A DNA stretch of 64,000 bases, from the NCBI RefSeq assembly GCF_008065115.1, contig NZ_CP042913.1, positions 5,157,257 to 5,221,256 on the forward strand, in the 5' to 3' direction. Below are positions 32,607 to 54,607 of this stretch, in pieces. This stretch comes from Bythopirellula goksoeyrii (GTDB taxonomy: Bacteria; Planctomycetota; Planctomycetia; Pirellulales; Lacipirellulaceae). The position numbers were made by a program, and so were the translations under genes. The notes beneath the pieces were generated by a model, which was not told where the DNA came from, ran no database searches, and saw nothing but the letters and a program-made list of their open reading frames with translations. Numbering within the stretch: position 1 is the stretch's first letter; each line of letters opens with the position of its first letter.

Positions 32607-32645
32607 TGGTTCGTGGTCAGTGGTTAGTGGTCAGATGTCAGTTGC
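32607..32645. repeat. GTCAGTGG-type spacer repeat
   Basis: GGTCAGTGGTTAGTGGTCAG followed by ATGTCAGTTGC, between the subunit III and heme O synthase genes. It belongs to the degenerate short-repeat spacers of this cluster. Confidence 0.55.
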
Positions 32646-34558: not shown

Positions 34559-34559
34559 G

Positions 34560-34640
34560 TGATAGGGGGGTAGACGAATAAATGTCCAAGGTCCAATGCA
34601 CAATGACCAAAAGTTGATTGGTCATTGGTCATTGGGAATT
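34560..34640. repeat. ATTGGTCATTGGTCATT-type spacer repeat entering the coxA 3' end
   Basis: Repeated words GGTCCAATG, CAATGACC and ATTGGTCATTGGTCATTGGG span the ctaA-coxA spacer and continue into the last codons of coxA (34622 on). Confidence 0.55.
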
Positions 34641-36409
34641 GCTTTTTCTTTCGGCGGTTGCGTCTGAGGGTAGTAGTCCTCATCCACTTCTGGCGAGCCG
34701 TACTCGTACGGTCCGCGGTAGATGATTGGCTGGAAATCGAAATTACCATGGCCAGGTGGGCTGGGTGCTTGCCATTCGAGGCCGTTTGCTTTCCAAGGGT
34801 TGCGTCCCGCGCGGGGGCCGAAGAACATGCTGTAGAAAAAATTAACCACAAAAATAGATTGCGAAGCCATCAGCAAAAATGCGCACCAACTGATGAACTG
34901 GTTTACCTCAAGTAGATTGCGGAAGGTTTCGTAGTGATAGGGATCGGCCAACCGACGTGGAAAGCCCTGCATGCCCAGAATGTGCATCGGGTAGAACACA
35001 CAGTTCATCAGGATGAAAGTGAGTGAAAAGTGAACCTTACCCCAGGAATCGTTCATCATGCGACCAAACATCTTGGGGAACCAATAATAGATCCCCCCAA
35101 AGACGGCCATTGCCGTGCCGCAGAAGAGTACGTAATGGAAATGGGCGACGATATAGTAGGTATCGTGAATGAAAATATCAACCGGCGTGGCTGCCATGAA
35201 GATGCCGCTGAGTCCCCCGATGATAAACATCGAGACAAACGAAATGGCAAAGAGCATTGGCGTGGTGAATTGAATCTTACCGCCCCAGAGTGTGCCAAGC
35301 CAGTTGAAGGTTTTGATCGCACTAGGGAGTGCGATCATCATCGTCGACACCATGAAGGTCATGCCAAGCATGGGATTCATTCCGGAGACAAACATGTGAT
35401 GACCCCAAACGATGAATCCCAGGCCCGCGATACCGGAGATGGAATAGACCATCGGCTTGTAACCAAACAGGGGCTTGCGGGCAAAGGTACTAAGGATATC
35501 GGAGACCATGCCCATCGCGGGGAGGATCATGATATAGACTGCCGGGTGGCTATAGAACCAGAACAAATGCTGCCAAAGCAGTGGCTGTCCGCCACCCGTT
35601 TCCATCGGTGAGTTATTGGCCATCGCCCCTTCAGGCAGAAAGAAACCCGTACCGATCATACGGTCGGACAACTGCATGAAGCCTGCCGCGGTGAGAACGG
35701 GGAGTGCGAAAGCCTGCAGCACTGCGGTAATAAACATACCCCAGATAGTCATTGGCAGGCGAAACATCGTCATGCCAGGAGCGCGCATTTGGATGATAGT
35801 CGTCATGTAATTGATCGAACCCATCATGGATGAGATTCCGACGAACGTAACACCCAAGAGCCAGAGAGTCTGGCCTTCTAAACTACCGGGCGCCGCTTGC
35901 TGTATCACTGACAACGGAGGATACGAGGTCCAACCCCCTTGGGCGGCACCTCCTTCCACGAAGAAACTACTTCCGATGAAAAAGAACGCTGGCCACATGA
36001 ACCAGTAGCTCAGCATGTTGAGCACCGGCACAGCCATGTCGTCGGCACCGATCATCAGCGGGATCAAAAAATTGCCAAACGCACCTGCCAGGATCGGGAT
36101 GATCACAAAAAAGATCATTACAGTCGCGTGCATGGTGACGAGCATGGTGTAATTCTCAGGAGCAATCTGGCCTCCCTCGGGTCCTGCCAACAAGTTGCCC
36201 AGCAGCGGCATGGGTCGCCAAGGATAGGCCAACTGCCAACGAATGCCCATCGCTAATAGGCCTCCCACCGAAAACCAGATCAGCGTGCTAAACAAGAATT
36301 GCAGCCCGATGATCTTGTGATCGAGAGAGAAGACGTAGGTCTTCAGGAAGCTGCTCGTAGGGGCGTGTTCGCCATGGGCAGCATGGGTATCAGCAGTAAC
36401 GGTACTCAT
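34622..36409 (-). CDS. coxA: Cytochrome c oxidase subunit I (A2-type heme-copper oxidase)
   Basis: The 595-residue catalytic subunit has twelve or more helices. The heme a and binuclear-centre ligands are present: the first His in YTMLVTMHATVMIFFVIIP, WFYSHPAVYIMILPAMGM with the CuB His and cross-linked Tyr region, IVWGHHMFVSGM with two CuB His, and DTYYIVAHFHYVLF with the two late His. In place of HPEV the helix VI motif is YSHPAV, the Tyr-Ser signature of A2-subfamily oxidases that lack the Glu of A1 enzymes. It reduces O2 and pumps protons using electrons from cytochrome c or CuA. The C-terminal tail (AIPNDQ) is encoded by spacer-like repeat DNA. Confidence 0.97.
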   Translation of the reverse strand: MSTVTADTHAAHGEHAPTSSFLKTYVFSLDHKIIGLQFLFSTLIWFSVGGLLAMGIRWQLAYPWRPMPLLGNLLAGPEGGQIAPENYTMLVTMHATVMIFFVIIPILAGAFGNFLIPLMIGADDMAVPVLNMLSYWFMWPAFFFIGSSFFVEGGAAQGGWTSYPPLSVIQQAAPGSLEGQTLWLLGVTFVGISSMMGSINYMTTIIQMRAPGMTMFRLPMTIWGMFITAVLQAFALPVLTAAGFMQLSDRMIGTGFFLPEGAMANNSPMETGGGQPLLWQHLFWFYSHPAVYIMILPAMGMVSDILSTFARKPLFGYKPMVYSISGIAGLGFIVWGHHMFVSGMNPMLGMTFMVSTMMIALPSAIKTFNWLGTLWGGKIQFTTPMLFAISFVSMFIIGGLSGIFMAATPVDIFIHDTYYIVAHFHYVLFCGTAMAVFGGIYYWFPKMFGRMMNDSWGKVHFSLTFILMNCVFYPMHILGMQGFPRRLADPYHYETFRNLLEVNQFISWCAFLLMASQSIFVVNFFYSMFFGPRAGRNPWKANGLEWQAPSPPGHGNFDFQPIIYRGPYEYGSPEVDEDYYPQTQPPKEKAIPNDQ

Positions 36410-37294: not shown

Positions 37295-38587
37295 TCAGTT
37301 CACAAGTTCAGTATTAATCGGCAAGGCTTTCTGTGGCTGACTGGCAGCTTCATAGGGCAACGACAACACATAATCGACAATGTTCCACATCTCTTCCTCG
37401 GTAAGCGTGCCTTGAGCTCCGGGACTGGCCGGGCCGCTGCCAGGCATCGGTGTCCCGGCGATACCTGCATAGATTCGCCAGAACAGATCAATCCGACGAT
37501 TCCCTCCACGGAAGACCCCTAGTCTGAGATTTCGAGGAATGGCATTGCGAACTGGAAACAACGACGCGGCAACTTCTTCGCGCTCTCTGGCAAATTGGGG
37601 ATCGCCAGAGTCATCAGCAACCGAGTCCAGGAATTGCAAATGGGCCTTATTCCAGATGTCGTAGTCGTCCTGTTGACCATCACCCAGACCGGTGGGGCCA
37701 TGGCACTTCATACAGTTAGCGCGCGCGCCGTAGAACAACTCGCGGCCTTTTGCCGCTGAAGCGGCAAACGCTTCCTTGTCATGAATGTCCGTGGGGATTG
37801 CTCCTTCTTCGGGCACAATAATCTGCTCATTGACTTCATTCCAGCCTTCGACAATCTCGGCGAGTATTTCGGTAATTGCCGCGCGTTGTTCTTCGTCATT
37901 CTCGGGATCAAGAGGAATGAGTTTCATTTTCGGTTCCCCCTCTTCGTCGAGTACGGGATCGCCATTCTCATCCGTCACTTCCTCTTCGCCTAAATCATTG
38001 TAGACGTAATTGGTCAGCGCAGTTTCCATCTGACCACGCATACTCAGGTACTTCACGTACTCGACGAGCGCCTCGATCTCTGCTGAGGCAAGTAGTGAGA
38101 ACGAGGGCATCGCAGAACCAGGAATTCCATTTACCAGAACTCGGTGAAGATCTTCGTCAGTCGGCTTGGCGGGATTGTAGGTCGACTTGAACTTGTAAAC
38201 TCCCTGACGGTAGTCGCGAGGATAGGGATTCAAGAAAAGTGCCGTCGGTCCCTGCCCATCCCCATCGATGCCGTGGCAATGGGAACAATGCAGTCGATAG
38301 AGTCCAAAAGCGGCCCCTTTATCATCCGTCCAGGCAGGGCCGGCTGCCATCTTTAACCGACGCATGTCGAGACCCGTTTCAGGCAAGACAAACGGTTCAT
38401 CGGGTGTGCCAAACATACCTCCCAGCACATCAGCAATCTGCTCCTGGTACGGCTCTGGAGTTGGTGTGGCATCAGAGAGCATCTGCACCATGTTGAGGTG
38501 GAACTGCGGCGTTTGAAAATCGCAGCCCGCAACCAACAGGGCCAAGCAACCTAACCAACAGATTGAACGCAAACAACGGTTCATCAA
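37295..38587 (-). CDS. Diheme cytochrome c lipoprotein
   Basis: The 430-residue product has a lipoprotein signal (ICWLGCLALLVAGC). Two c-type heme sites are seen: HCSHCHGIDGDGQGP (~105-110) and NCMKCHGPTGLGDGQ (~292). Axial Met candidates are in GIPGSAMPSFSLLA and GIAGTPMPGSG. Between the domains is an acidic, Glu/Asp-rich segment (EEVTDENGDPVLDEEGEPKM). The protein is anchored outside the cytoplasmic membrane and probably carries electrons from the quinol-oxidising part to CuA of the adjacent coxB product. This role is inferred from gene order. A second ATG (38584) is equally possible. Confidence 0.9.
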   Translation of the reverse strand: MMNRCLRSICWLGCLALLVAGCDFQTPQFHLNMVQMLSDATPTPEPYQEQIADVLGGMFGTPDEPFVLPETGLDMRRLKMAAGPAWTDDKGAAFGLYRLHCSHCHGIDGDGQGPTALFLNPYPRDYRQGVYKFKSTYNPAKPTDEDLHRVLVNGIPGSAMPSFSLLASAEIEALVEYVKYLSMRGQMETALTNYVYNDLGEEEVTDENGDPVLDEEGEPKMKLIPLDPENDEEQRAAITEILAEIVEGWNEVNEQIIVPEEGAIPTDIHDKEAFAASAAKGRELFYGARANCMKCHGPTGLGDGQQDDYDIWNKAHLQFLDSVADDSGDPQFAREREEVAASLFPVRNAIPRNLRLGVFRGGNRRIDLFWRIYAGIAGTPMPGSGPASPGAQGTLTEEEMWNIVDYVLSLPYEAASQPQKALPINTELVN

Positions 38588-38701: not shown

Positions 38702-39628
38702 CTACAAACCAAACGCAGCACTGGGGACTGTGAGGTTTAGCTCCTTCACTTCATCCTCGCCAAGCTTCACATTAAACCGGCCTTTCTTAGACCACTTTAA
38801 CTCTTTTGCTTCGGGAGTCGCCAAAACCAACGAACTACCTGGCCCAGCCGCACTTTCGTGCCAGACCTGAAATTCCAAGTCCTCTCCGGCCGGTAGGTTG
38901 GCAATCTCAAAACTTCCTTCCTCAGTGGTGACGGCAACATAGCCATTCTCACGAGGCAAGAAGTAGGCCAACATCCACGGGTGAATACTGCAACGCACGC
39001 TCACAGGAACCGCTTCTTCTTTTTGCGGTTTGAATGCGATAGTCTCTCCAACGGGAATCGTTTGATTGAAGCTGTTCTTACCTTCGATATTTGTGTTATG
39101 CCCTACGGGATCGCTATTCTTAATGTCCATCGTATTGCCCAATACGAAGGGGAACACATGGGTAAGAAAGACACATTCTTTTTGATCAAAAAGGACTTGC
39201 TCACCTTTGGGTTGTGCCGACTCGTGCACACGCGAGGCCTTGCGGACAAAAATGGCAACGTTGGCAATTCCCTTGGTGGCGGAATCCACCAAGAGAGTCT
39301 GCTGCAAAGGAGCCTTGCCATTGATCGTGCAGGCGGCCATGTCCTTATTCACGTTGTAAGGCGGCATCGTAGGTGGATTGCCATCGAAGACAAACTTGCC
39401 CTTGAGAGTCGCCCAACCGGTGCCGGTTACCACCGTGGCACCTCCCTCTCCACCAGTACTATCTCCCAAAAGTGCTTCGCGCGCCTTCGCAGCAGCAGCA
39501 GCATTCGCCACAGGACCCAAATCGGTAACACGACGACAGCCCATGAGCATCAGCCCCATGAGCATCGCAGCGCCGGCGTAGCGAAAGTACAACTTGGTTT
39601 GCACGTGTGTCACTTGTTCAACCATCAT
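38702..39628 (-). CDS. Cupredoxin-like lipoprotein (paralogue 1)
   Basis: The ATG at 39628 (or the next ATG 39625) lies 7 bp after the stop of the upstream paralogue. The 308-residue product has a lipoprotein-like leader (AAMLMGLMLMGC), an Ala-rich linker and a beta-sandwich domain starting TLKGKFVFDGNPP. Putative type 1 copper ligands are the His in DPVGHNTNIEGKN and the C-x2-H-P-W-M set in RCSIHPWMLAYF. The final ~90 residues form a second beta-domain (FEIANLPAGEDLEFQVWHE), like carboxypeptidase-regulatory modules. It is probably an outer-face electron carrier; copper binding is inferred from the ligand pattern. Confidence 0.8.
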   Translation of the reverse strand: MMVEQVTHVQTKLYFRYAGAAMLMGLMLMGCRRVTDLGPVANAAAAAKAREALLGDSTGGEGGATVVTGTGWATLKGKFVFDGNPPTMPPYNVNKDMAACTINGKAPLQQTLLVDSATKGIANVAIFVRKASRVHESAQPKGEQVLFDQKECVFLTHVFPFVLGNTMDIKNSDPVGHNTNIEGKNSFNQTIPVGETIAFKPQKEEAVPVSVRCSIHPWMLAYFLPRENGYVAVTTEEGSFEIANLPAGEDLEFQVWHESAAGPGSSLVLATPEAKELKWSKKGRFNVKLGEDEVKELNLTVPSAAFGL

Positions 39629-39635
39629 CGAGTGC

Positions 39636-40421
39636 TTACTTACCCAGTGTCTTGGCGGGAACTTTGATTTCGCCCAAGTCAAGCGTTTCGCCAGAGGCAA
39701 TCTTCAACTTGGCTCGGCCTTTGCGGTCCGTCTTGCCGTCGGACAGCTTCATATCGCGCATGTTACCTTTGGCCTCATGCCAAAAAATGAATTCATGTTC
39801 GCCGGCAGGGATATTCACGATCTCAAACTCACCGTTCTCATCGCTGATTGCTACATAGGGATCTTCGCGGACAACGGCATGGGCCTTCATCCAAGGGTGC
39901 ACGTTGCAAGCCACAGGTGCAGGGACTGGTTCCGCTTTTTGCAGGGTCTTGGTGATTGGCTTGTCGTTGGTAACCATCTCGTTGAAGCCTGGGTTGGCGA
40001 CAAATGAGGCATTCGTGTTGTGACCGATTCCTGCATCATCGTTTCGAATCTCGAACGGCTGATTTGTCCGGATGGCAATTACATGCGGTTCGAAGCGGCA
40101 ACCCTTGTTGTCAAGCACAACGGGTTCACTAGCGGTGGCTTCGTAGTCGGGATGCACATCGAGCGATTGGCCGCGTTTGGTGTAGATATACACGACTACA
40201 TTGGCAAGTTCGCCACCTTCTCCAACCACGATCGTCTCGTCGACCAGGTCGTGCTTGCCACAATACTCAGTGTCTTTGTTGACATTGATGGCAGCCGGAT
40301 CACCGACCGACCCGTCAACAACAAACTTACCCTTGAGGGATCCCCAGTCGGCAGCACCAACCTGGCTAGCCAAGGTTAGTGTGATGACAGCAGATGTAAG
40401 AATCGCAATATTGCTTCGCAT
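39636..40421 (-). CDS. Exported cupredoxin-like protein (paralogue 2)
   Basis: This 261-residue protein has a signal peptide (NIAILTSAVITLTLASQVGA) and the same build as the next gene: a domain starting DWGSLKGKFVVDG, the His in AGIGHNTNASF, the C-x2-H-P-W-M set in ACNVHPWMKAHAVV, and a C-terminal FEIVNIPAGEHEFIFWHEAK. The pattern H...C-x2-H-x2-M fits a type 1 copper site. Proteins of this kind are often annotated as methylamine-utilisation or plastocyanin-like. Being between the multiheme cytochrome and the oxidase genes, it is a candidate soluble electron shuttle; this is inference. Confidence 0.82.
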   Translation of the reverse strand: MRSNIAILTSAVITLTLASQVGAADWGSLKGKFVVDGSVGDPAAINVNKDTEYCGKHDLVDETIVVGEGGELANVVVYIYTKRGQSLDVHPDYEATASEPVVLDNKGCRFEPHVIAIRTNQPFEIRNDDAGIGHNTNASFVANPGFNEMVTNDKPITKTLQKAEPVPAPVACNVHPWMKAHAVVREDPYVAISDENGEFEIVNIPAGEHEFIFWHEAKGNMRDMKLSDGKTDRKGRAKLKIASGETLDLGEIKVPAKTLGK

Positions 40422-40446: not shown

Positions 40447-43400
40447 TCACTCTAAGGATGCCGTGTCGCCATCGGCATCGGAGGTTGGAGGTGCATTGGC
40501 GTCGGCCGCAGCTTTCACCATGGGAGTAACCTCCGTTTGCCGTTTGGCATACGTATCAAAATTCAATAAAAGGTCTACGAGACCGGTCAATTGTTCAAGG
40601 CTTGTCCCGGGGAACAAGTTCTGAGCGACGCCACCCAAATGTGGTGCGTCTGCATTGAAAGGAATATTCACAGGCATACCTGTGTAAGGCAGAATTCGCT
40701 TCGGATTGGCGACCCAATTGCGGATGAATTCAGGCCGCAAACGCGAGTGGACATCTGCGAGATTTGGGCCAAACGTGGTCGGGTCTCCCTGTGGGTAGAA
40801 GTCTTCCACGGCATGGCACTTCACGCAGTAGTTGCCGTTGACCACGATATTCATCGCATCGCTGAGCCGTTCAGGATGCTCGGCTTCCTTCTCAGCGATA
40901 TAGCTGCCACGTTGACTACGGTTGTATTCGTACGGATATTCAGCTCCCGAGGAGGCGGCAAAGTAGTTCACCAGTTTGGATGCTTCCTCGCTCGACATGT
41001 GGAAGTTCGGCATCCGCATCACAACCGCGGGACGAATTTCGGTTGGGTCCATCAGGAAGCCATGCAACCAATCGGGCTGCACTTTCTCGCCTTCCTGCAT
41101 CAGCGGCGGTGGCAACCAGCCCCAAGCCTCGGAACCTTTGACTTGCGGATTCGCCAGCTTGGCATGCTCGATTACCTTCGGATAGAGATAACGCGCCAAA
41201 TCACCACCCCAGGCAGGAAAGGCTTTCCCTTCGGCTGGTCCATAATCGGTGCGGCTAGCAGGAACCATCGGATCTTGAATCCCCACATTCCATGCTTCCC
41301 CTGCGATTAGCGTATCTCGCCATAATGTGAAGCGATAATAGGGGTCCGACTCGTCATCGTCGGGTTCCAGCTCTAAGCCATCGATGTCAAATTGCAGAGG
41401 TTCACCCGTTTCCTCGCTCATCACAGGCAAGCCATTGAGCGTCGTGTGCATCCGTCCGCCCGAATCAATCACGAGAGATTCAGCGATCTCCTGCTGGGAA
41501 AAATGCTTCTCTAGGAAAGGAAAGTCTTGCACCTGGATTGGAGACTCGAATTCTCCTTCGGTAAAGGCAACCTTCCACTCTTCCATCTTGAGCGTGTGGC
41601 AGCCAGCACAGTTGAATTGGTCGAGCACATGACGTCCCGCGACTTCCGCGGCCCGGCGGGCATCCGGATGATAGACGAACTTATCGGCCGGCGGTTCGCT
41701 CACCAATCCCAAGACAAACGTCATCACCGCTTCACGCTCATCCTCGGTGAAGGGGAACTTCGGCATCCGAAGTCGCTCGTTGTAGCCTTTGTTCTTGGTT
41801 GTCTTGTAGTCGAAGCTACGTGGCATGCGAAGCTTTTGCCAAAGGAATCCGTCACGGGAGTGGCTTACCAGCGACTGAAGGAAATAGCTGATGCCATCTT
41901 GCACATAGTCGCCTGGATTCAGATGGCCATGACCACCGCCATCGTGTGCCTCGGCCCCGTGCGCATCACCCGAATGTTTGTCAGCGTGAGGATCGCCAGA
42001 TCCTGAAAGAAAGGCATGGATGTTCTCAAACGCCAGCTTCGAGCTATCCTTACGGCCCCAGTCGGCCAGTCCGGTTCCGATCGGCTTCGCATCCTCGAAT
42101 CCGGGGATATCGTGGCAACCGAAACAACCATACTTGCTGATAGTGCGCCGGGCAACAAAGTCCTGCAGTTGTTGCGTACGATTAGCGAAGTTCTTTTTCA
42201 GGAGCAGCTTTTCATCTGCCTTGAGCTTCGGTTCCAGCGAATCCGGGATGCCAGTCTTGACGAATTCCTCAGCACGGGCTGCAGGAATCGCATCACTGGA
42301 GAGCCACTCCTGAGCCAAGTCGGCGAGGGCCGTGAGATCATCGCCGGACCAATCTCTAGCAGGCACATCCGTTGGCTTCCAGTCGGAAGGTGTTCCCAAG
42401 AGGAAAGCCCTGATGTCGGCTGCTGGGTCTGTGACCTTGCCCGTCGACTGATTCTGCGCATCTTTCTCCTCGATGGGAGTGAGATATAGCTCAGGCATCT
42501 TCGTACGCGGATTATAATCATGAGGTTGCTTGATCCAACTGTACAACCACTTCTTGCCAATGTCGTTGTTCAACTTGGCACCAACTCGAGACAAATCAGG
42601 CCCTTGATTGGCAGCAATACCAGGGAAGGCTTCGTGCGAGTGACATGCCAGGCACCCGCGCGATTCAAAGAGCCACTTGCCACGTTCAGCTGAAGCAGTC
42701 TCGGTGACTTCCTTGGGAGGAGTCAGATATTTGAATTCAGAACTATTAGCCAGCAGATACTCGCTCAAAGCGTGAATCTCGACGGCTTCGTACCGCTTGG
42801 TCTTGTCGAGTTCCTCAGGGTCTTCGCCCAAATGTTCCCACAGACCAAAGAACTGCGGCATGCGAGTCGAGGGCCGGAAATTCGATGGCAACTTGATCCA
42901 GCTGTAGAGCCAGTCGTATTCGACCTTGGATTTCAAATATCGCAAGCTGGGGCCAACTTTGCGATAGGTACCGGGGACTTCGACATCTTTCAATCCATCA
43001 GCAAGCTTGTGTGTTTCAGCACTTAATCGTGCCTCGTCGCTCGTCTGAGAACTGGAAGCCAATTTGGCATCCGACTTGAGTGCATCGAACAGGGAATGAC
43101 GCACACTACTGTCATCAGGATGGCTTCGTAGTGTCGTAGCCCAGCCCTTCTCTTGATCGTTCAGCGTGTCATCACGGAGAAGTTGCGCCGCCACCTCGCT
43201 GTAATTCGGTTCCAATCGGATGTCTGGTCCAACTCGCTTATCGGGCCCGTCGAATCCATTGATCTCGTGACAGCCGTAGCAGCCGTATTGCTCAACCAAC
43301 GTCCAACCTTCAACCAACTTGGGGGCAGGAGGCTCGGGGAACCGCTCGCTCGGTTCTAGCGATCCCTTGTCGTAGTGACACTTCAGACAGTTGCTCTCGA

Positions 43401-45030
43401 CAAAGCGCTGCGGCTTCATGGGAAAAATCCAGTGATGGTTGTCGAACCAACCATACTTGTGAAGCCATTCGTCTTGTTGATCGAAGTCATTCGGAGTGTG
43501 AGAAGTCCACTTGAATTCAGTACCACTTCCCTGCCCATCATGGCAAACCGTGCAGCCCATCACCTTCTCAGGGTGCGGACTCGAATCGGTGAGATAAAGG
43601 TCTAGTCGTGGATGTGACGTAAAGGGATGATCCAAACCACGGCGAACTTTCAATTCAGCAGGCTCGCCCCAGGAAACTAGCGTCAGAAGATAATTGGCAA
43701 CCGACTCTTTGTTATCTACCGGAATACCGCCAGCCGCTTCGATGATGTCGCCCGACTCCAATCCTGCCTGCGCGGCCAAAGAACCAGGCAGCGCGTAATG
43801 TACGATGGCATGCTCGCCAGCACCCACGATGACGTCATTGGTGAGCTCCAGCCCGTAAACTTCGTTCAGCCCCGAGCCGTCTGCAGGGGCTTCTTCAGGG
43901 GTCGGTATTTTGATCGTCAAATCTCGTTTGGATTCAGGCAACGTGGGGAACGCAGGTTCCGTAGCTCTGCCGGCCGCCGTCGTTGAAATGTCCTGGTGAC
44001 AGGTCTTGCAACGGTCAAAGCGGGCGGCCTGTGAAAAGTTGTAATTAATCGTGAGATCAGGAAGCCAAATCTGATCGATCTGCACATTGCCACTGTAGAG
44101 GGCGTTGAGAATCGGCCAGCGGGTGATCCACTCACCAAGTCGGCTGAAACCGGTCGGTTGCGTTTTCTGAGCTTGCTCAGAGAGCCGACTAAGTTCGGTT
44201 TCCATCGTGCTCCGTTCTTTGAGCAGCACCGCTTTGCGGTCGTTGATCGAGGCCACGACCTCTTCGAGACTCCTGCGATAGTTGTTGGCAGCCGCGAGAT
44301 CGACTGTAAGCTCAGCGATGCTCTTTGAATACTCGTCAATCTGCTTTTGTTTTTCCGCTCTGCGCTTCTCATCGACGCCTTCACTGACCATGAGGCCCAA
44401 AGCACTGACGGCTGCCGTGCGGTTTGCTGCCACAAACTTGCGTGTTCCAGCAAGCGTTTTTTCGCGACGCCGAGCTTCGTCGATGTAGTCAGTCATTAAA
44501 CTAAGTAACTTCTCGCGGGCTACTGCAGTAGAAGCATAGCTGGAAAGTAGCTCACGTTGATCTTGGGGATCTACCTGAGCTTTGGCATCCGTGTTTTCGG
44601 CGGCCCCCTCGTCTGTCCCCTCTATACGGTCACGGACTTCTGCCGCCTTGGTGGCAGCCTCGTTGACCTTCTGCAGCTGGTTTTCGAGAGCAGAGAAATC
44701 GGACTCTGGTAAAGAAAGTCGTTCGTTTTCTGCCTTCACTGAAGACTCAAATTCTTCCACGTCGGCAGGATCTACCGGCTCACTCTCGGCTTCGCGCAAT
44801 TCTTTGTCGAAATTCTCTAGCTTGGAAGAGAACTGATCTGCCAGCGAATCGTGTCGCGCCTGAATAATCCAGGCACTCTTCTTGCGATTCTCCAGCTGCA
44901 TGCTTTTCCACTGGCGATTGTGGTCCTTGGCCAGGAGCCACAACGTAGCAATCGTCATCACCAGTGCCGTAGCACCGAAGATGATGTGCATGATTTTTTG
45001 GTCGTACCAGGTTTGTTCGCTTGCAGGCAT
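40447..45030 (-). CDS. Giant octaheme cytochrome c with coiled-coil and PDZ-like regions
   Basis: This 1527-residue protein has one N-terminal helix (~13-34), and is then exposed outside the membrane. Residues ~45-290 are charged and strongly helical, probably a long coiled coil. Eight CxxCH heme sites occur at about 341, 493, 548, 584, 793, 969, 1141 and 1402. Between the first and second heme, residues ~395-465 look like a PDZ domain (PGSLAAQAGLESGDIIEAAG). A His-rich loop lies at ~1014-1036. Several cytochrome-c-like folds have RMP/KMP-type Met candidates (TRMPQFFG, TKMPELYL, LRMPKFPF, MRMPNFHM, YTGMPVNI). It follows the cytochrome b genes where cytochrome c1 would be expected, so it probably takes electrons from the Rieske centre. 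I recognise no named family. Confidence 0.9.
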   Translation of the reverse strand: MPASEQTWYDQKIMHIIFGATALVMTIATLWLLAKDHNRQWKSMQLENRKKSAWIIQARHDSLADQFSSKLENFDKELREAESEPVDPADVEEFESSVKAENERLSLPESDFSALENQLQKVNEAATKAAEVRDRIEGTDEGAAENTDAKAQVDPQDQRELLSSYASTAVAREKLLSLMTDYIDEARRREKTLAGTRKFVAANRTAAVSALGLMVSEGVDEKRRAEKQKQIDEYSKSIAELTVDLAAANNYRRSLEEVVASINDRKAVLLKERSTMETELSRLSEQAQKTQPTGFSRLGEWITRWPILNALYSGNVQIDQIWLPDLTINYNFSQAARFDRCKTCHQDISTTAAGRATEPAFPTLPESKRDLTIKIPTPEEAPADGSGLNEVYGLELTNDVIVGAGEHAIVHYALPGSLAAQAGLESGDIIEAAGGIPVDNKESVANYLLTLVSWGEPAELKVRRGLDHPFTSHPRLDLYLTDSSPHPEKVMGCTVCHDGQGSGTEFKWTSHTPNDFDQQDEWLHKYGWFDNHHWIFPMKPQRFVESNCLKCHYDKGSLEPSERFPEPPAPKLVEGWTLVEQYGCYGCHEINGFDGPDKRVGPDIRLEPNYSEVAAQLLRDDTLNDQEKGWATTLRSHPDDSSVRHSLFDALKSDAKLASSSQTSDEARLSAETHKLADGLKDVEVPGTYRKVGPSLRYLKSKVEYDWLYSWIKLPSNFRPSTRMPQFFGLWEHLGEDPEELDKTKRYEAVEIHALSEYLLANSSEFKYLTPPKEVTETASAERGKWLFESRGCLACHSHEAFPGIAANQGPDLSRVGAKLNNDIGKKWLYSWIKQPHDYNPRTKMPELYLTPIEEKDAQNQSTGKVTDPAADIRAFLLGTPSDWKPTDVPARDWSGDDLTALADLAQEWLSSDAIPAARAEEFVKTGIPDSLEPKLKADEKLLLKKNFANRTQQLQDFVARRTISKYGCFGCHDIPGFEDAKPIGTGLADWGRKDSSKLAFENIHAFLSGSGDPHADKHSGDAHGAEAHDGGGHGHLNPGDYVQDGISYFLQSLVSHSRDGFLWQKLRMPRSFDYKTTKNKGYNERLRMPKFPFTEDEREAVMTFVLGLVSEPPADKFVYHPDARRAAEVAGRHVLDQFNCAGCHTLKMEEWKVAFTEGEFESPIQVQDFPFLEKHFSQQEIAESLVIDSGGRMHTTLNGLPVMSEETGEPLQFDIDGLELEPDDDESDPYYRFTLWRDTLIAGEAWNVGIQDPMVPASRTDYGPAEGKAFPAWGGDLARYLYPKVIEHAKLANPQVKGSEAWGWLPPPLMQEGEKVQPDWLHGFLMDPTEIRPAVVMRMPNFHMSSEEASKLVNYFAASSGAEYPYEYNRSQRGSYIAEKEAEHPERLSDAMNIVVNGNYCVKCHAVEDFYPQGDPTTFGPNLADVHSRLRPEFIRNWVANPKRILPYTGMPVNIPFNADAPHLGGVAQNLFPGTSLEQLTGLVDLLLNFDTYAKRQTEVTPMVKAAADANAPPTSDADGDTASLE

Positions 45031-45106
45031 AAGTAGGTAGTTAGCTATTAGCTGTTAGCAATTAGTGGATGCAGTTAGCTAATCGCTAAAAGCTAAACGC
45101 TAACAG
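45031..45106. repeat. TTAGCTATTAGCTGTTAGC-type spacer repeat
   Basis: GTTAGCTATTAGCTGTTAGC, then AGTTAGCTAATCGC and TAAAAGCTAAACGCTAACAG form short direct and inverted words between the cytochrome b C-half and octaheme genes. Confidence 0.65.
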
Positions 45107-46531
45107 CTAAAAATTAAAGAAAAACTCCGGAATCGCAATCAAATATTTCAATTGAAAAACCCACCGCAGCACCATCTTGATGGGCAGCGATGCCATAAAC
45201 AGCAACAGATTTGCCATAATCATGAATCGCACGAAACCCATCCGCTGGTAAAAGCTGCGGAAGATTGTCAGGGCCATGATCGGCGGCAGAGCAATAAAAT
45301 AGCCAAGCACCAACAACGTGCCAGGAAGCTCGCGGCCAAACAGCAGCGAGAAAAACTCCAAAAACGGATTCAAGAATGCCGTTAGCCATTCAGGAAGCGG
45401 AAACCATGGCATATCGGCAAAGGAAAGCGCGCCAGGAAGGCTCATATTCAGCCCCCGCTGCCAAACATATTCCGAAAGATTCACATTATTGAGTGCTTCC
45501 ACCTTATGCGCATCCCAATGCTCGTAGGGACCGAAGAAGTTCCAGTTCGGACCTCGCAGGAGGGTCCCCAGCACAATCAAGGTGATCCACATTTCCAGGA
45601 AGCCAAACTGGAATACGGTATAGCTAAAGGGGCGTTCTTTGATGGTGTAGTAACCGTTGCCCTTCTTATTGAAATCAAGATAAGGAATCGCCATCAGGCC
45701 AGCCACAATCATGCTAGGCAGAACCACACCAGCCATCCAGGGATCGTAGTAGACAAGCATTTCCTGCAAGCCCAGGAAGTACCAAGGTGCCTTCGAAGGA
45801 TTAGGAGTCTTGACGCTGCTGGCCGCCTCTTCCAAGGGAGCAGGCAAGGCGATCGCCCAAAAAATCAAAAACGCTGTCAGAGCGATCATGCAGATCAATT
45901 CGGTATAGACCAAATCGGGCCACACGAGGATCTTTTCGTCGTCGAGTTTCTCCAGTGGTGGTTCTCCGTTGGCGATGCGCTCGTCGTTAATGACTGCCCG
46001 ATAGGTTGCCAGCCAAGTGAAAAAGGCCAGCAAGAACACGAGCATGACGATCGGCACATTATCAGGCTTCGCCACGATATCGTAGAAGTCGGGGTCCGTC
46101 ATCGACAACCCGAGGAATAACCACATCAGATTCCAAATGGCCCAGGCAATTGCCGGTCGGACGAAGAAGCCACGGAACAAATACAGCACGACAAGGGCAA
46201 GAGTAGAACCCACGCTGTAGACTACGGGGCCCGTACTCTTGTTGATCGCCTCGCGCAGCCATTCTGGTAGGGATACCAAGCTCAAGTTGCCGCTGCCAGC
46301 AATCGCTGCCAGAATTGCGAAGACCATGGCCACCAGTAGCCATACCACCACGTTGGTTATTGCAACACTCTTACCCCCGATTCGCATCGGGAGCCCGATC
46401 CAGTCTTTCGTCTGATCGGACCGCCAAAGATACAAAGCGGCCAGGCCGTTCATCAGCGCAAGCGCAATGTAAAACGGCAGCAAGAAAGAAGCTACCATTT
46501 CCTGAAACTGAATTTCCGACAGTCCGTGCAT
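45107..46531 (-). CDS. Cytochrome b C-terminal half (subunit IV-like) with extra N-terminal helices
   Basis: The 474-residue product is far longer than PetD-type subunit IV (~160). Residues ~10-180 hold about five extra helices. The recognised part starts near KILVWPDLVYTELICMIALT and continues through PNPSKAPWYFLGLQEMLVYY, DPWMAGVVLPSMIVAGLMAI and further C-terminal helices (PGTLLVLGYFIALPPIMALT). In the Qo-site loop the usual PEWY reads APWY. With the cytochrome b N-half encoded just upstream it forms the quinol-oxidising core. It carries no CxxCH motif. The extra helices may bind the octaheme cytochrome encoded next, which is inference. Confidence 0.88.
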   Translation of the reverse strand: MHGLSEIQFQEMVASFLLPFYIALALMNGLAALYLWRSDQTKDWIGLPMRIGGKSVAITNVVVWLLVAMVFAILAAIAGSGNLSLVSLPEWLREAINKSTGPVVYSVGSTLALVVLYLFRGFFVRPAIAWAIWNLMWLFLGLSMTDPDFYDIVAKPDNVPIVMLVFLLAFFTWLATYRAVINDERIANGEPPLEKLDDEKILVWPDLVYTELICMIALTAFLIFWAIALPAPLEEAASSVKTPNPSKAPWYFLGLQEMLVYYDPWMAGVVLPSMIVAGLMAIPYLDFNKKGNGYYTIKERPFSYTVFQFGFLEMWITLIVLGTLLRGPNWNFFGPYEHWDAHKVEALNNVNLSEYVWQRGLNMSLPGALSFADMPWFPLPEWLTAFLNPFLEFFSLLFGRELPGTLLVLGYFIALPPIMALTIFRSFYQRMGFVRFMIMANLLLFMASLPIKMVLRWVFQLKYLIAIPEFFFNF

Positions 46532-46616
46532 ATTTTAGTGATTGGTGGTTAGTGGTTGGTGGCCGGTGAAGAGTGTCTAGCAACTAGAGACCAGCCACTC
46601 ACCACAAACCACGCTC
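46532..46616. repeat. TGGTGGTTAGTGGTTGGTGG-type spacer repeat
   Basis: ATTGGTGGTTAGTGGTTGGT and, inverted, CCAGCCACTCACCACAAACC flank the middle of the spacer between the two cytochrome b genes. Confidence 0.6.
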
Positions 46617-47393
46617 TTACAGCGGTCCGCTGATCCCGCCGTCTTTTCTTACTCGCCAGAAGTGGATTGCCAACAGCAAGGCCACGCCAAGCGGGATCGC
46701 GATACAGTGCAAAATATAAAATCGATTGAGCGTTTCTTCACCTACTTCGCGCGCACCCAATAGCGCAAAGCGCGCGTCAGAGGCGTTGGTAATCATGTCG
46801 ACCCCGCCGAGGGTCAACAACTGCTGCCCCGGGCCTTCATGCCCCAGAAACGGAGTCGCCCGAGCCATATTCGAACCGACCGTAATAGCCCAGACCGCTA
46901 ATTGATCCCAAGGGAGCAGATAACCGGTAAAGGACAACAATAGGGTTAATAACAGCAGAAACACCCCGACGACCCAGTTAAACTCGCGCGGTGGCTTGTA
47001 GCTGCCCGTGAGAAACACGCGATACATGTGTAGCCAGACCGTAATGACCATCGCATGGGCGCCCCAGCGATGGATCTCACGCAGGATTCCCAGGGAATGC
47101 ACGTCGCGGAGCATTTGAATATCCGTATACGCCCACTCGACCGTGGGGCGATAATAAAACATCAACAATACACCGGTGACCGTTTCGACGAGAAACAAGA
47201 AGAAGGTCACACCACCCATACACCAAGTATAGGAAAGAGCGATGCCTTGCTTCTTGATCGAGACCGGATGCAAGTGCAAGAAGAAGTTGGTCAACATCAC
47301 CACAATCCGATTACGGCGATCAACCGGCATCGGGTGACGAAAAATACTCTTCCAAATCTGCGATTCGCGAATCGTTTCGCCTAAATCGGGCAT
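46617..47393 (-). CDS. Cytochrome b N-terminal half (cytochrome b6-like)
   Basis: This 258-residue protein has four helices and the two heme-b His pairs: [20 protein letters not shown] (two or three His in helix B) and [20 protein letters not shown] followed by HFWRVR (helix D). The loop [20 protein letters not shown] is typical of cytochrome b/b6. Residues 1-45 form an amphipathic N-terminus with [12 protein letters not shown]. It holds the Qi and part of the Qo quinol sites. It is encoded between the Rieske gene and the cytochrome b C-half, the order found in split bc complexes. Confidence 0.93.
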
Positions 47394-47507
47394 AGTAGTT
47401 AGTTGTCTGTGGTCAGTGGTCAGTTATTGGAGAGCCGGGTCGACCCCGACCCCGGTTTGCTCTCGACTCTTCTCAATTCAGCATCCGTAATACGAATTCC
47501 GCATTCC
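47394..47507. repeat. Spacer with GTCAGTGG and ATTCCGCATTCC words
   Basis: TGTGGTCAGTGGTCAG near 47410 and CGAATTCCGCATTCC near 47492. Two of the window's low-complexity word families meet in the spacer between the Rieske and cytochrome b genes. Confidence 0.5.
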
Positions 47508-48539
47508 TTAAACTGGGATGAAGGAAGTTGGCTCTTCCCACTGCCCCATTTCCTCCTGGTATGTGCGGCTTTTGTCGATTTCAATCTGCCCATCGTCGGC
47601 GACGCGGATGGCATATCGCTCCAATGGTCGCGGGGCAGGCCCCTCGAAGTTGATGCCATCCTTGTAGAAACCGCTACCATGACAGGGGCATTTGAATTTT
47701 TGCTCGGCTTCGAGCCAGTTCGGCGTGCACCCCAGGTGGGTACAGACCGACTTGAGCGCAAATATCTCTTGCTGCCCATTGAATTCTGTGTTCACCACCC
47801 AGACGCCGAACTGCGCCTTAAACTTCGTCTGCACCTGTCCGGCGGGAAACGCATCAGGGAAGCCGACTTTGAATTTGCTCGGTGGTTCCCGTCGCACATT
47901 GGGGAACATGAATTTCACAGTCGCCAGCGTCCACAAGGCGCCAACCGCCGCGAGTCCCCAGAAACCCGTATGCAGAAAGCCACGACGTGTTTCGTCCACA
48001 GATTCAGCCGATTTTTTTCCCGCACCTGCAGGTTTGGCTTTAGCGTAATCCGGCTTCTCCGGCATGGGAGGAACCACGATCTGCGGCTTTGCCTTAGCGG
48101 TGGGACTCGCCTTTTCCTTGGCGGCAGCCTCTGCCTTGGAAGTCGGACCTGCTTTGGATGATTTCTTCGCTGCAGCTAGAATACTCGCCGTGTCGCGAGG
48201 CTCGCTCGGCGCGGCAGCAGCGGGCTTCTTCGCGGGAGCTTCCTTCTTTGCAGCAGCGGGCTTCGGAGCGGGCTTTTTCTCCGCAGGCTTCTCGGCGGCA
48301 CCACTATCACCGCTCCGGGCAGCGGCCAACATCTCGGCCACACTGAGACGGCCTCCGCTGGCAGACTTCGCGGGAGCAGGCTTGGCAGGCTTCGACTCCG
48401 ATGCTTGGGGCTCTGCTGCTTCGGGGGCTGCGGCCTCGGGAGCCTCCGCTGGCTCATCTGCAGGCGCATCGCTTCCACCGTCAGCCTTGCGGGCTGCGGC
48501 TAGCATTTCAGCCACAGACATTTTTTTCTTGTCAGCCAT
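47508..48539 (-). CDS. Rieske iron-sulfur protein with long repeat-bearing N-terminal extension
   Basis: The 343-residue product has the Rieske motifs SVCTHLGCTPNW (Cys266, His268, Cys271) and FKCPCHGSGF (Cys284, Cys286, His287): four residues bind the 2Fe-2S cluster and two form the disulfide. A membrane helix (~190-210) follows DETRRGFLHTG, a twin-arginine-like entry. The first ~185 residues are a cytoplasmic, Ala/Pro/Lys-rich tail containing three related motifs: MSVAEMLAAARKAD (7-20), LSVAEMLAAARSGD (65-78) and TASILAAAKKSS (117-128). The Rieske protein moves electrons from quinol to the c-type acceptor. It is the first gene of the respiratory run; the tail is far longer than the usual ~40 residues before the helix. 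Confidence 0.94.
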   Translation of the reverse strand: MADKKKMSVAEMLAAARKADGGSDAPADEPAEAPEAAAPEAAEPQASESKPAKPAPAKSASGGRLSVAEMLAAARSGDSGAAEKPAEKKPAPKPAAAKKEAPAKKPAAAAPSEPRDTASILAAAKKSSKAGPTSKAEAAAKEKASPTAKAKPQIVVPPMPEKPDYAKAKPAGAGKKSAESVDETRRGFLHTGFWGLAAVGALWTLATVKFMFPNVRREPPSKFKVGFPDAFPAGQVQTKFKAQFGVWVVNTEFNGQQEIFALKSVCTHLGCTPNWLEAEQKFKCPCHGSGFYKDGINFEGPAPRPLERYAIRVADDGQIEIDKSRTYQEEMGQWEEPTSFIPV

Positions 48540-51433: not shown

Positions 51434-54400
51434 TTAACAGACCTGTTCAAGTAGTTGAGTAAAATTACACCGCCGACCAGTTCCGATCCCAATTAGGCTT
51501 GCTATTGCAATTAGTAAGGAGGAAGGTTCAGGCACCTGGGTCGTCGAAGACGGAGGATTTGTGCCCGTGAGTTGTCGCTGCCAAAAGAGAAAATCTCTTC
51601 CATCGGTGTCGGCATCTCCGTCGGCATCTCCGTCGGCATCTCCGTCGGCATCTCCGTCGGCACCGGTGCCGTAGGATTGTTGCCAGATGGATAAGTCGCC
51701 ATCATTCACGAAACCATCGCCATTGAAGTCTGCTGGGGCAAGAGCAGTAGTAAGCACTCTGAACTGCAACAGTTCATTACCCAATACAGATAAATCGAAG
51801 TTCAATTGGTGGCGATCAGGAGAAATGATCAGCATTCCTTCAGGACCTAAAGTTAACCCTCGGTCGGCATCAGTACCGTAGTCTCCTATCGAACCTAGCA
51901 AGGCATCTGTGGAAACCAAAGAAGACTGATTGAACAGGATACCCAGAATCTCTCCGCCAAACGTGATTGAACCGGTGGCATCTTCAGTCATCGAACTGTC
52001 TTGTGCGAAAGGATCAAAGCTCAAGACATAGCTATTGAACTTCGTGCCCATTGGAATTTGGCCCACCGTCGCTTGGCCCACATTTGTCAACGTCACCCCG
52101 CCATTGATAATCGCGTCGACTGATAGTGAACCTTCAAGTACGTCGCTACGTTCGTGGATCAATTGCAATTGAGATGATTCGGATGCCCCTAATGAGATAC
52201 TTGTGGGGCGCATAGGCGAAGTAACTCTTCCAGAATATGACGCCACTTGGTAGTCCGTAGGACTCAGTACAGAGTTATATCTGTCTTGGACATTGCTTGA
52301 AGTAACGGCATAGTTGTAAAAACGCAATTCAGCGATTTCGCCTCTTAGACCCCCCGAAAATGGTAGATCTCCACTCCCTCCATTTCCTCCTAGACCGTTG
52401 CCACCGACATTGCCCAAACCCGCCATGTCGTACGTGTCCCATTGAGGACTCTCACTGGCCCCCAGCAAGCCATTGACACGGGTAACAAGTGCACCGTTTA
52501 CATAGATCTCTTGATAGCGATCGTTAGGATCATCATTGAACACAGCAACAAGATGCACGAAACCCTGAGTTGGATCAGCAAACCGATCGATTCTTGCCGT
52601 AGCACTAAACCCTTTGAGAGTTCCTATTCCCGTATCTGCTCCTGACAACCCCAAAACTCGAAATCGCAAATCATTCTTCAAGCCGTCGCTGTCAGCGTCT
52701 CCGAGAGTAACTGAGATTCCACCAGTTGCATCTCCGGATTCCATGAGAATTCCATTCTCAGTCAAGCTATCCAGCCGGACCCAGAACTCCATAGTAGCCG
52801 AGCGGTTCCAATCCGGCGTTCCGGCATTAGGGGTCGTTTTCCGAGGACCATCGTCAGCTACTTGCAGAAAGTTTTGGCGCATAACATCTCCCCCATCAAA
52901 ATAAAACGCCTGGCGGGAGAGGCCAGGCTGAAAGGGGGATGTACTTGAGATGGTTGGCTGTTCTGAGCCTCCGCCAAAATTCCAGGTTTCGCGCCCTTTG
53001 TACCGAAGGTCGGTAGTCGAGCGCCAGTTCGTAGCTTCGCTTCCAGGCTGGTTAGCATACCAATCGATGGCAACGTCTTTTTTCACATCGTAAGCGAATG
53101 GAGCATCAATAGCCTCCAAGTAGTTCTCCAGTTTCGCTTTCAATTCGGCAGACTTTAATGGCATTGAATTGAAAAGATTCACCGACTCACTCAGATCATC
53201 CTTCAGATTGTAGAGAAAGTATTGATCGGTACCCCCATTCTCTGCCCATTCCACATAGAGCTTATAATCTCCGTCGCGTACGGCCGACGATGGTTTCGTA
53301 CGAAAGTTTGGTCCAATCGCAAAATTCATGGGCCAATGAAAATAAACCTCTCCACTCGTATGAAAGTTTCTGGGCAAGAAGTCCATGCCTGAAGGCAGAT
53401 TTCCAGCGTTATTCAAAACAGGTGCAAAACTACCTGACTCAACATTAGCAGGTAATGGAGAAGCGTAGCCAGCCAATTCTGCGATCGTCGCATAGAGATC
53501 GGTCGTTGTGATGGGTACGTCGCTCACACTTCCTGCTTGAATATTGGGACCACTCACGATAAAAGGTACGCGAAGACCTCCTTCCCTGACTGAAGCCTTG
53601 CCTTCTCGTAGTGGTGTATTCTTGCTGAAAGCAAGTGGGGCACCGTTGTCGGAAGTGTAAAATATATACGTATTGTCCGAGATTCCGAGTTGGCTGATTT
53701 TATCCAAAATCAGACCAAAGGATGTATCTAAATCTTCGGTCATCGCGGCATAGTCAGAATTATCATGTACTGCGCCTGGGGGGAGTACATCGTACTTATC
53801 TCTGATTTCCTGTCGCGAGCGAATAGGAGGATGTACAGCCTTCTCTGAGACCTGTAGGAAGAACGGTTGATCGTTAGACACGCGATCCTCAATAAATGAG
53901 TTGGCCATGCCTGCCAACTTGTAGACACCCCAGGGATCTACTTCATCAGGGGGCAGTGGATTTAAGTCTTCTCCAAAATCATAACCTACAGCTTGTGGTG
54001 TGGTAGTTCTTGGGATGTCCAAATGCCATTTACCCAAATGGGCCGTAACATAACTCGGATTGGCCTGCTTGATGATGCGAGGAAGTGTTAGTCCCGTAGG
54101 ATCGAACACTTCTGGCGTAGGAGGGGTTAAGGGTAAATCCGTATAGCCACCCTCCCAACGAATTGAACCTTCTGGCAGAGCATGAGGCATATCTCCCATC
54201 TGCAGGGCGTTATGGTTGCGGCCAGACTGAATCGAAGCCCTGGTCGTGGCACACACGGGAGAAGAAGAATAGCCCTGCGAGAATCTCATCCCCGCAGAGG
54301 CCAATTGTTCCAAACGAGGTGTCTGATAAAAATCGCTTTTCGAACCTGGAACAGTTGGATCCATCTGCACCGATGTTCCATTCCAACCTTGATCGTCTAC

Positions 54401-54514
54401 AAGTATAACGATGATATTTGGAGGGGAATCACTCGCTTGGACGGACGACACGAGAACAAGACAGATTATCCATAGAATCTTAAACGCATCGGTTGAAAAG
54501 AGATATCTGTACAT
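51434..54514 (-). CDS. Large secreted sulfatase with LamG-like, dockerin-like and PEP-CTERM regions
   Basis: The ATG at 54514 (MYRYLFSTDAFKILWIICLV) opens a signal peptide; the longer frame to 54565 adds an unlikely leader. In the 1026-residue product, ~30-480 is a type I sulfatase (NIIVILVDDQGWNGT, HLGKWHLD, FYTSDNGAPLAFSKNTPLRE). At the formylglycine site the motif reads VCATTRASIQSG: Cys ~88 is present but the usual Pro of CxPxR is Thr. Residues ~510-750 resemble a LamG/concanavalin-like domain, ~760-940 is a beta-rich module, then PADFNGDGFVNDGDLSIWQQ is a dockerin-like repeat, a GDAD expansion and a PEP-CTERM end (VPEPSSLLIAIASLIGIGTG plus RR). It likely acts at the cell surface on sulfated polymers. 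Confidence 0.93.
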   Translation of the reverse strand: MYRYLFSTDAFKILWIICLVLVSSVQASDSPPNIIVILVDDQGWNGTSVQMDPTVPGSKSDFYQTPRLEQLASAGMRFSQGYSSSPVCATTRASIQSGRNHNALQMGDMPHALPEGSIRWEGGYTDLPLTPPTPEVFDPTGLTLPRIIKQANPSYVTAHLGKWHLDIPRTTTPQAVGYDFGEDLNPLPPDEVDPWGVYKLAGMANSFIEDRVSNDQPFFLQVSEKAVHPPIRSRQEIRDKYDVLPPGAVHDNSDYAAMTEDLDTSFGLILDKISQLGISDNTYIFYTSDNGAPLAFSKNTPLREGKASVREGGLRVPFIVSGPNIQAGSVSDVPITTTDLYATIAELAGYASPLPANVESGSFAPVLNNAGNLPSGMDFLPRNFHTSGEVYFHWPMNFAIGPNFRTKPSSAVRDGDYKLYVEWAENGGTDQYFLYNLKDDLSESVNLFNSMPLKSAELKAKLENYLEAIDAPFAYDVKKDVAIDWYANQPGSEATNWRSTTDLRYKGRETWNFGGGSEQPTISSTSPFQPGLSRQAFYFDGGDVMRQNFLQVADDGPRKTTPNAGTPDWNRSATMEFWVRLDSLTENGILMESGDATGGISVTLGDADSDGLKNDLRFRVLGLSGADTGIGTLKGFSATARIDRFADPTQGFVHLVAVFNDDPNDRYQEIYVNGALVTRVNGLLGASESPQWDTYDMAGLGNVGGNGLGGNGGSGDLPFSGGLRGEIAELRFYNYAVTSSNVQDRYNSVLSPTDYQVASYSGRVTSPMRPTSISLGASESSQLQLIHERSDVLEGSLSVDAIINGGVTLTNVGQATVGQIPMGTKFNSYVLSFDPFAQDSSMTEDATGSITFGGEILGILFNQSSLVSTDALLGSIGDYGTDADRGLTLGPEGMLIISPDRHQLNFDLSVLGNELLQFRVLTTALAPADFNGDGFVNDGDLSIWQQSYGTGADGDADGDADGDADGDADTDGRDFLFWQRQLTGTNPPSSTTQVPEPSSLLIAIASLIGIGTGRRCNFTQLLEQVC
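51610..51657. repeat. 12-bp tandem repeat inside the sulfatase gene
   Basis: Four perfect copies of CGGCATCTCCGT plus partial units at both sides. On the coding strand it gives the GDAD-GDAD acidic repeat in the second half of the dockerin-like region. Copy number could vary by slippage. Confidence 0.95.
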
Positions 54515-54607
54515 GTATCGACTCGAGGCAGTCAAGTAATCAAAGTACTTTAGACGTGAACACAAAGTTCAATGCTAGAAAAATCAGTAGTGGAAAACTG
54601 GAGATCT

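Follow-up and report, generated by a model that had tools for sequence, protein, structure and literature searches.

Two designs of complex III are usually taught, cytochrome bc1 and cytochrome b6f. Two complexes of Kuenenia have been described in which a hexa- or octaheme cytochrome replaces cytochrome f (PMC12954380), and in Nitrospina a split b6-like cytochrome b is encoded together with an atypical octaheme cytochrome c, in an operon that also occurs in Kuenenia and Methylomirabilis (PMC3578206). Planctomycetes are reported to possess b6f-type Rieske proteins, including one of Schlesneria, as well as fused cytochromes b-c1 (PMC4013037). We analysed a 64,000-nucleotide stretch of the planctomycete Bythopirellula goksoeyrii (contig NZ_CP042913.1, positions 5,157,257 to 5,221,256; hereafter the window), whose 6.47-Mb genome is a single contig, and found that a third design, discussed for anammox bacteria and a few nitrogen-cycle bacteria, accompanies b6-type cytochrome b in most of the sampled planctomycetes that have one. 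Other phyla also carry the octaheme design, and a few of their loci have oxidase genes adjacent.

An original prediction, made from the window itself, had read one gene cluster as Rieske protein, split cytochrome b and a 1527-residue octaheme protein in place of cytochrome c1. The open reading frames (ORFs), Pfam and eight CXXCH motifs bear out that order. The locus probably encodes an octaheme-type Rieske/cytochrome b complex, that is, a complex III, whose octaheme protein would pass electrons to small carriers. It is a real and widespread variant of a known, little-studied class. The novelty implied by the prediction was overstated, as replacement of c1 or f by an octaheme cytochrome has been published for Kuenenia, Nitrospina gracilis and Methylomirabilis.

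Gene order and comparison with described complexes

The four ORFs of the unit are colinear on the minus strand, with gaps of 76-114 bp:

47508-48539, minus strand: Rieske [2Fe-2S] protein, 343 amino acids (Pfam Rieske, 1.3e-9)
46617-47393, minus strand: N-terminal half (N-half) of cytochrome b, b6 type, 258 amino acids (Pfam Cytochrome_B, 2.5e-39)
45107-46531, minus strand: C-terminal half (C-half) of cytochrome b, an enlarged subunit IV, 474 amino acids (Pfam Cytochrom_B_C, 1.5e-4)
40447-45030, minus strand: membrane-anchored octaheme c-type cytochrome, 1527 amino acids (Pfam Cytochrom_C, 1.6e-15)

Judged by sequence, the unit belongs to the octaheme class. Like the Kuenenia complex encoded by Kustd1480-1485, it combines a Rieske protein, a b6-like cytochrome b and a separate subunit IV-like protein with one large octaheme cytochrome (Kustd1485 in Kuenenia) in place of cytochrome f; the window's membrane-anchored, eight-CXXCH counterpart, the putative replacement of c1 or f, is by alignment homologous to it. 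The comparison was made with locus L103 of genome G078, which we take to be Kuenenia from its residue numbers and gene order. The first His of the HLHP motif is residue 43 in one G078 cytochrome b and residue 62 in the other, with Arg or Lys at 247 and 266/267, and G078 is very probably Kuenenia because these numbers equal those for Kuste4571 and Kustd1481 (PMC12954380). The octaheme frame of L103 (956 amino acids, eight CXXCH) shares motifs and ligands with the window protein in the alignment, and this presumed Kuenenia octaheme is assigned to the same family. In contrast to Kuenenia, the window unit has no NAD(P) oxidoreductase gene between its Rieske and octaheme genes, its octaheme protein has 1527 residues with a PDZ insert rather than about 950, its subunit IV has nine or ten helices rather than five, and an aerobic aa3 oxidase operon lies downstream. 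In the anammox-type loci L103, L105 and L106, a frame of 566-569 amino acids stands between the Rieske and octaheme genes; it is presumably the NAD(P) oxidoreductase, an identity taken from PMC12954380, and we treat it as an add-on and not as a defining feature of the complex. We found no published description of this very large, cupredoxin- and oxidase-linked variant without an NAD(P)H-module gene, nor any account of the octaheme complex from Acidobacteriota, Bdellovibrionota, Marinimicrobia or planctomycetes outside the anammox group; subscription papers may deal with part of these topics.

The operon of Nitrospina gracilis and Methylomirabilis oxyfera likewise holds an Fe-S subunit, a split b6-like cytochrome b and an octaheme cytochrome as the only adjacent putative c subunit (PMC3578206); that of N. 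gracilis is known from its genome only and is likened to the window by its description. Cytochrome b6f shares with the window a split cytochrome b, a Cys for heme c_i and small blue-copper-like carrier genes nearby, but the window has no cytochrome f, and it has APWY, an octaheme exit subunit and a much enlarged subunit IV. Compared with bc1, the window has no separate c1, and its cytochrome b is split with APWY rather than unsplit with PEWY. The best NCBIfam models of both halves come from the ExtO/ExtP/ExtQ system of Geobacter, ExtP for the N-half (264 bits, cut-off 290; cytochrome b6, 187 bits, cut-off 325) and ExtQ for the C-half, also below its cut-off. The ext cluster, too, contains a Rieske protein and multiheme cytochromes, but these cytochromes have 4, 5, 10 and 12 hemes, a porin is present, and the system is associated with selenite/tellurite and Fe(III) reduction (PMC5877670).

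The octaheme gene is linked to b6-type cytochrome b in planctomycetes

In a sample of 292 planctomycete genomes, 200 had a match to the octaheme protein at E ≤ 0.001, many of them short heme-motif matches, and 191 had a match to the N-half, many of them weak. With stricter cut-offs (E < 1e-60 for cytochrome b and E < 1e-10 for the octaheme protein), which were set after the tables had been inspected, 128 genomes had both proteins, 7 cytochrome b only, 5 the octaheme protein only and 152 neither; an octaheme protein thus accompanied a strong b6-type cytochrome b in 128 of 135 genomes.

Linkage was scored in 88 regions around b6-type cytochrome b matches, from 87 of these 135 genomes, a choice that was not blind; genes were identified by stop-to-stop frames and profiles. 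G019, G066 and G103, with cytochrome b and the octaheme match on different contigs, were left out, and G096, G180, G262 and several fragmented multi-copy genomes, likewise split over contigs, also fall outside the sample. L103, L105, L106, L108 and L127 are represented by the cytochrome b copy that lay close to the octaheme match. In 75 of the 88 regions (70 of 83 when those five are set aside), the octaheme gene shares the strand of the C-half and follows it at a distance of no more than 400 bp. In L077 and L079 it is next in order, with a frame that runs too far for the distance test, and in L107 it adjoins a second cytochrome b copy. It is rearranged within the fetched region in L071, L080 and L099-L101, where regions were stretched to reach it, whereas L102 and L104 have a hexaheme subunit instead, of the Kuste4573 kind. 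L061, L065 and L093 have no octaheme gene nearby and a homologue elsewhere in each genome. Eight CXXCH motifs were counted in 68 of the 75 linked frames; five others reach a contig end (L075, L078, L082, L091 and L094) and two are split 6+2 (L088 and L109). Among the 88 regions we saw no complete single octaheme-family frame with any other number of motifs.

The arrangement extends to other phyla

The cytochrome b alignment, used to scan named genomes, returned at least 584 relatives, of which the best 80 loci were kept, picked by cytochrome b alone. In 73 of these 80 the C-half is followed by a member of the octaheme family; 59 of these members are complete and have eight CXXCH, 12 are truncated at a contig end and 2 are broken into two frames (L142 and L207). 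Five of the seven misses end at a contig end (L140, L163, L180, L184 and L194), L193 is rearranged, and L201 has none. Sorted by title, the octaheme gene follows the C-half in Planctomycetota (40/44), Acidobacteriota (12/12), Bdellovibrionota (7/9), Marinimicrobia (4/4), Omnitrophota (2/3), Gemmatimonadota (1/1) and Latescibacterota (1/1), and in all six loci with unclear titles (three called Kuenenia, one Nealsonbacteria, two without a name). Individual phylum labels may be wrong because nearly all of these loci come from metagenome-assembled genomes. The Kuenenia and Nealsonbacteria labels of L136, L137, L161 and L192 look wrong because their cytochrome b is 79-90% identical to that of the window planctomycete. 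The named and planctomycete samples overlap at least once (L132 and L031 are the same contig). Recurrence in 75 of 88 and 73 of 80 loci means that the gene order is no chance event, and it answers the prediction's own check, whether the octaheme gene always follows the C-half, with strongly conserved linkage.

A tree built quickly from both halves of cytochrome b shows the phyla clustering, with 9 changes over all groups where the minimum possible is 7. Bdellovibrionota form one clade (98), and Planctomycetota and Acidobacteriota require 4 changes each; branches are long, and the tree gives no dated history.

Eight hemes and eight conserved distal ligand candidates

The CXXCH motifs of the octaheme protein are at residues 341, 493, 548, 584, 793, 969, 1141 and 1402. 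Its other features are:

44929-44985, minus strand: predicted membrane helix, residues 16-34 (hydropathy; the only helix)
43624-43941, minus strand: PDZ domain, residues 364-469 (PDZ_6, 2.4e-7), between heme 1 and heme 2
40675-44010, minus strand: region that holds all eight CXXCH motifs together with the eight candidate distal ligands (alignment columns)

Outside the CXXCH motifs, the near-invariant His and Met columns number exactly three and five, respectively. The candidate distal ligands are H473, H486, H511, M724, M845, M1089, M1340 and M1452; their columns are kept in 136 of 136 sequences, except that of M1452 (134 of 136). The predicted ligation is three bis-His and five His/Met hemes. 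Because the conserved distal candidates equal the hemes in number, no open catalytic heme is predicted, and a novel enzyme with a catalytic heme was not favoured. The PDZ insert is not general among family members.

With the octaheme model as query, Foldseek returned nothing that reached 0.001, and the 50 entries listed bear PDZ domains. The matches listed by VIA-align were PDZ and SoxX, so that the other heme domains were barely probed. A profile search of the PDB matched 199 distinct sequences; the 60 listed align over one cytochrome c domain, and they include subunit A of alternative complex III (E 3.8e-10).

A b6-type cytochrome b with an unusual quinol site

The two cytochrome b halves contain the following motifs:

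47265-47276, minus strand: HLHP motif (His40, His42) of the N-half, in 164 of 169 N-half frames
47220-47222, minus strand: Cys58 of the N-half, where heme c_i (c_n) would be attached, as it is in b6f; WC.GG in 162 of 169 N-half frames
45779-45790, minus strand: APWY motif of the C-half (residues 248-251, invariant in the alignment), at the place of PEWY in the quinol-oxidation site

The Cys58 column is at least 90% conserved in the N-half alignment, and the window cytochrome b is assigned to the b6 type, with Cys58 at the position expected for heme c_i. His40 corresponds to His43 of Kuste4571 and His62 of Kustd1481, which AlphaFold3 predicts to ligate an additional b heme where the two halves of the dimer meet (PMC12954380). 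The predicted ligand of this interface heme is kept far beyond anammox bacteria. APWYF stands where PEWY is expected in all 167 C-half frames. The C-half has nine hydrophobic segments and about ten long helices in an AlphaFold2 model (mean predicted local distance difference test score 81.7), which is of low confidence around APWY; a fold search with this model returned nothing with E < 1.

The best NCBIfam model of the Rieske protein is b6f-type PetC, with a score under its cut-off. A Tat-like RRGFL signal lies behind an N-terminal tail (Ala/Lys/Pro-rich, about 175-180 residues). This extension contains two copies of SVAEMLAAAR, and in other phyla the Rieske frames are mostly shorter than 260 amino acids.

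Other Rieske/cytochrome b complexes in the genome

As the original prediction had it, the unit has no other c1-like gene, and the 6.47-Mb genome has no match to cytochrome c1 (PF02167) or cytochrome f (PF01333); in control searches these two models matched 1 and 2 of 14 genomes, respectively. A canonical c1 encoded elsewhere was rejected on this result. Matches to PF02167 occur in 15 of the 292 planctomycete genomes, 8 of them over the cut-off, and span 21-55 model positions inside long frames.

Cytochrome b was found at three places in the genome, including the window locus. The two others pair a Rieske protein with an unsplit cytochrome b that carries a fused c domain: L111 (C1:500000-516000) has two CXXCH and PEWY, and L112 (C1:5444000-5461000) has one CXXCH and PDWY and adjoins a second oxidase, with COX1 and a heme-bearing COX2. 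These fused b-c complexes, of the Kuste3096-3097 type, resemble the window unit in having a Rieske protein and cytochrome b, and differ in that cytochrome b is unsplit, with PEWY or PDWY and two or one C-terminal c hemes. Seven Rieske domains occur in the genome, three of them adjoining cytochrome b.

Small carriers and an oxidase lie downstream

Downstream of the octaheme gene, the window encodes:

39636-40421, minus strand: cupredoxin-like protein 1, 261 amino acids, with an H...C-x2-H-x2-M pattern
38702-39700, minus strand: cupredoxin-like protein 2, 332 amino acids as called, with the same H...C-x2-H-x2-M pattern
37295-38587, minus strand: diheme cytochrome c, 430 amino acids
36481-37254, minus strand: cytochrome c oxidase subunit II, COX2 (CoxB, 4e-50), with CxxxCxxxHxxM, which we take to be the CuA motif, and no CXXCH
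34622-36409, minus strand: cytochrome c oxidase subunit I, COX1, aa3 type (sequence, Pfam, NCBIfam)
31611-34603, minus strand: genes of the oxidase operon that we take, from their sequence, to be CtaA-, CtaB- and COX3-like

Two cupredoxin-like genes and a diheme cytochrome c thus stand between the octaheme gene and COX2, and the locus reads as one respiratory unit, presumably running from quinol to oxygen. H...C-x2-H-x2-M is the ligand pattern of type 1 copper; of the 128 family members aligned, 125-127 retain its columns and 123 retain CxxHxxM. The TTG start called for the second gene overlaps the preceding gene, and the true start is probably later, at a lipoprotein-like MLMGCRR. Both proteins are candidate electron carriers.

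Downstream genes were counted in the 62 planctomycete loci with at least 4 kb fetched after the octaheme gene (82 of the 88 regions have this gene), absence meaning unseen within the fetched stretch. A cupredoxin-like gene was present in 46 (immediately downstream in 41), COX1 on the same strand in 24 and a diheme cytochrome in 23. In planctomycetes, therefore, no downstream partner is as constant as a small carrier, and the oxidase is less so. Twelve further named loci, mostly planctomycetes and some possibly repeats of the first 62, gave 11 (10 immediately), 5 and 6, respectively. The corresponding counts for 18 loci of other phyla were 6 (5 immediately), 4 and 0, and there neither the cupredoxin-like gene nor the oxidase appears constant.

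Discussion

The octaheme protein can be taken to stand in for c1 or f because its linkage to the C-half is strongly conserved and the genome has no c1 or f match, which supports the original prediction on this point, with the caveat that c domains fused to two other cytochromes b exist. For such a complex we infer electron-transfer steps, quinone type and stoichiometry as follows. Quinol, probably menaquinol, would be oxidised at the outer site, where the b6-like cytochrome b meets the enlarged subunit IV. The first electron would pass through hemes bL, bH and c_i and reduce quinone at the inner site; the second would go through the Rieske cluster to the octaheme protein, which would do the job of cytochrome c1 or f while tethered by its single predicted N-terminal membrane helix. 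Its hemes may carry or store electrons and hand them to the two cupredoxin-like proteins and the diheme cytochrome c, from which they would reach the CuA centre of the adjacent aa3 oxidase.

Several observations weigh against this picture. A hydropathy scan of the Rieske protein gave no membrane helix at the threshold used, and for both cupredoxin-like genes Pfam and NCBIfam gave no cupredoxin match, so that their assignment is by motif only. In L099-L101, which belong to one planctomycete family, the Rieske/octaheme pair lies about 10 kb from both cytochrome b genes. The ligand assignment and the contact between the Rieske protein and the octaheme protein are themselves predictions. Finally, the octaheme complex appears dispensable in planctomycetes because some genomes of the same order and class have only fused-type b-c complexes, with weak octaheme-profile matches (best 2.8e-13).

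The original prediction went further and proposed that the octaheme protein is a fixed wire, bridging the Rieske centre straight to the oxidase in a bc-oxidase supercomplex with no mobile carriers. The protein is large and anchored, and the aa3 oxidase genes lie downstream in the same direction, as COX1 does in the 24 planctomycete loci counted above. However, COX1 was unseen in the fetched stretch in 38 of the 62 planctomycete loci and in 14 of the 18 loci of other phyla, and the homologue in L103 belongs very probably to Kuenenia, whose anammox metabolism works without oxygen (PMC12954380). Cupredoxin-like and diheme cytochrome genes intervene, so small carriers are favoured over a fixed wire, which we consider unlikely and not the best reading of the locus.

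Two other roles are conceivable for the octaheme protein. It could act on a substrate or feed other acceptors, a fused b-c complex being the true complex III; the genome does encode two such complexes, one beside a second oxidase, and relatives apparently without an octaheme protein have only fused complexes in the places seen. Yet the octaheme gene is tightly linked to cytochrome b, and with a distal candidate for every heme no catalytic site is predicted, which makes such a side branch most improbable. Alternatively, the protein might store electrons rather than route them. Eight hemes are present where one suffices, and the three predicted bis-His hemes are expected to lie below the Rieske centre in potential. 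Against this, the unit has no other exit subunit and the genome has no c1 or f match; moreover, several phyla share the conserved ligands, an indication that the whole octaheme family uses this route. A purely passive store is thus very unlikely, and passage of electrons through the octaheme protein to small carriers remains the reading that we prefer.

More tentatively, bc1 and b6f may have an ancient third counterpart among Rieske/cytochrome b complexes, represented by these loci in at least seven phyla (by titles, mostly of metagenome-assembled genomes). Such a class, which we hold to be possible though somewhat less likely than not, would be marked by an exit subunit of eight hemes whose ligation is fixed (three bis-His, five His/Met), an APWY site, heme c_i and an HLHP pair that possibly holds an interface b heme between the dimer halves; in aerobes it would feed cupredoxins and an aa3 oxidase, and the NAD(P)H module would be a later anammox addition. 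If cultured aerobes carry the complex, they would offer a test ground for Rieske exit through eight hemes, could be used to test the predicted interface heme, whose ligand is almost invariant, and could show how a quinol site functions when the glutamate of PEWY is missing. The eight ligand predictions are concrete and can be checked by spectroscopy.

Neighbouring genes

Beyond the COX3-like gene lie a COX4-type gene, two ABC-transporter-like genes, and then SCO1/SenC and a DUF420 protein. Elsewhere in the window, at 51434-55525, a sulfatase is encoded next to a sulfotransferase; the sulfatase contains a laminin-G-like domain and also a dockerin-like stretch (below cut-off).

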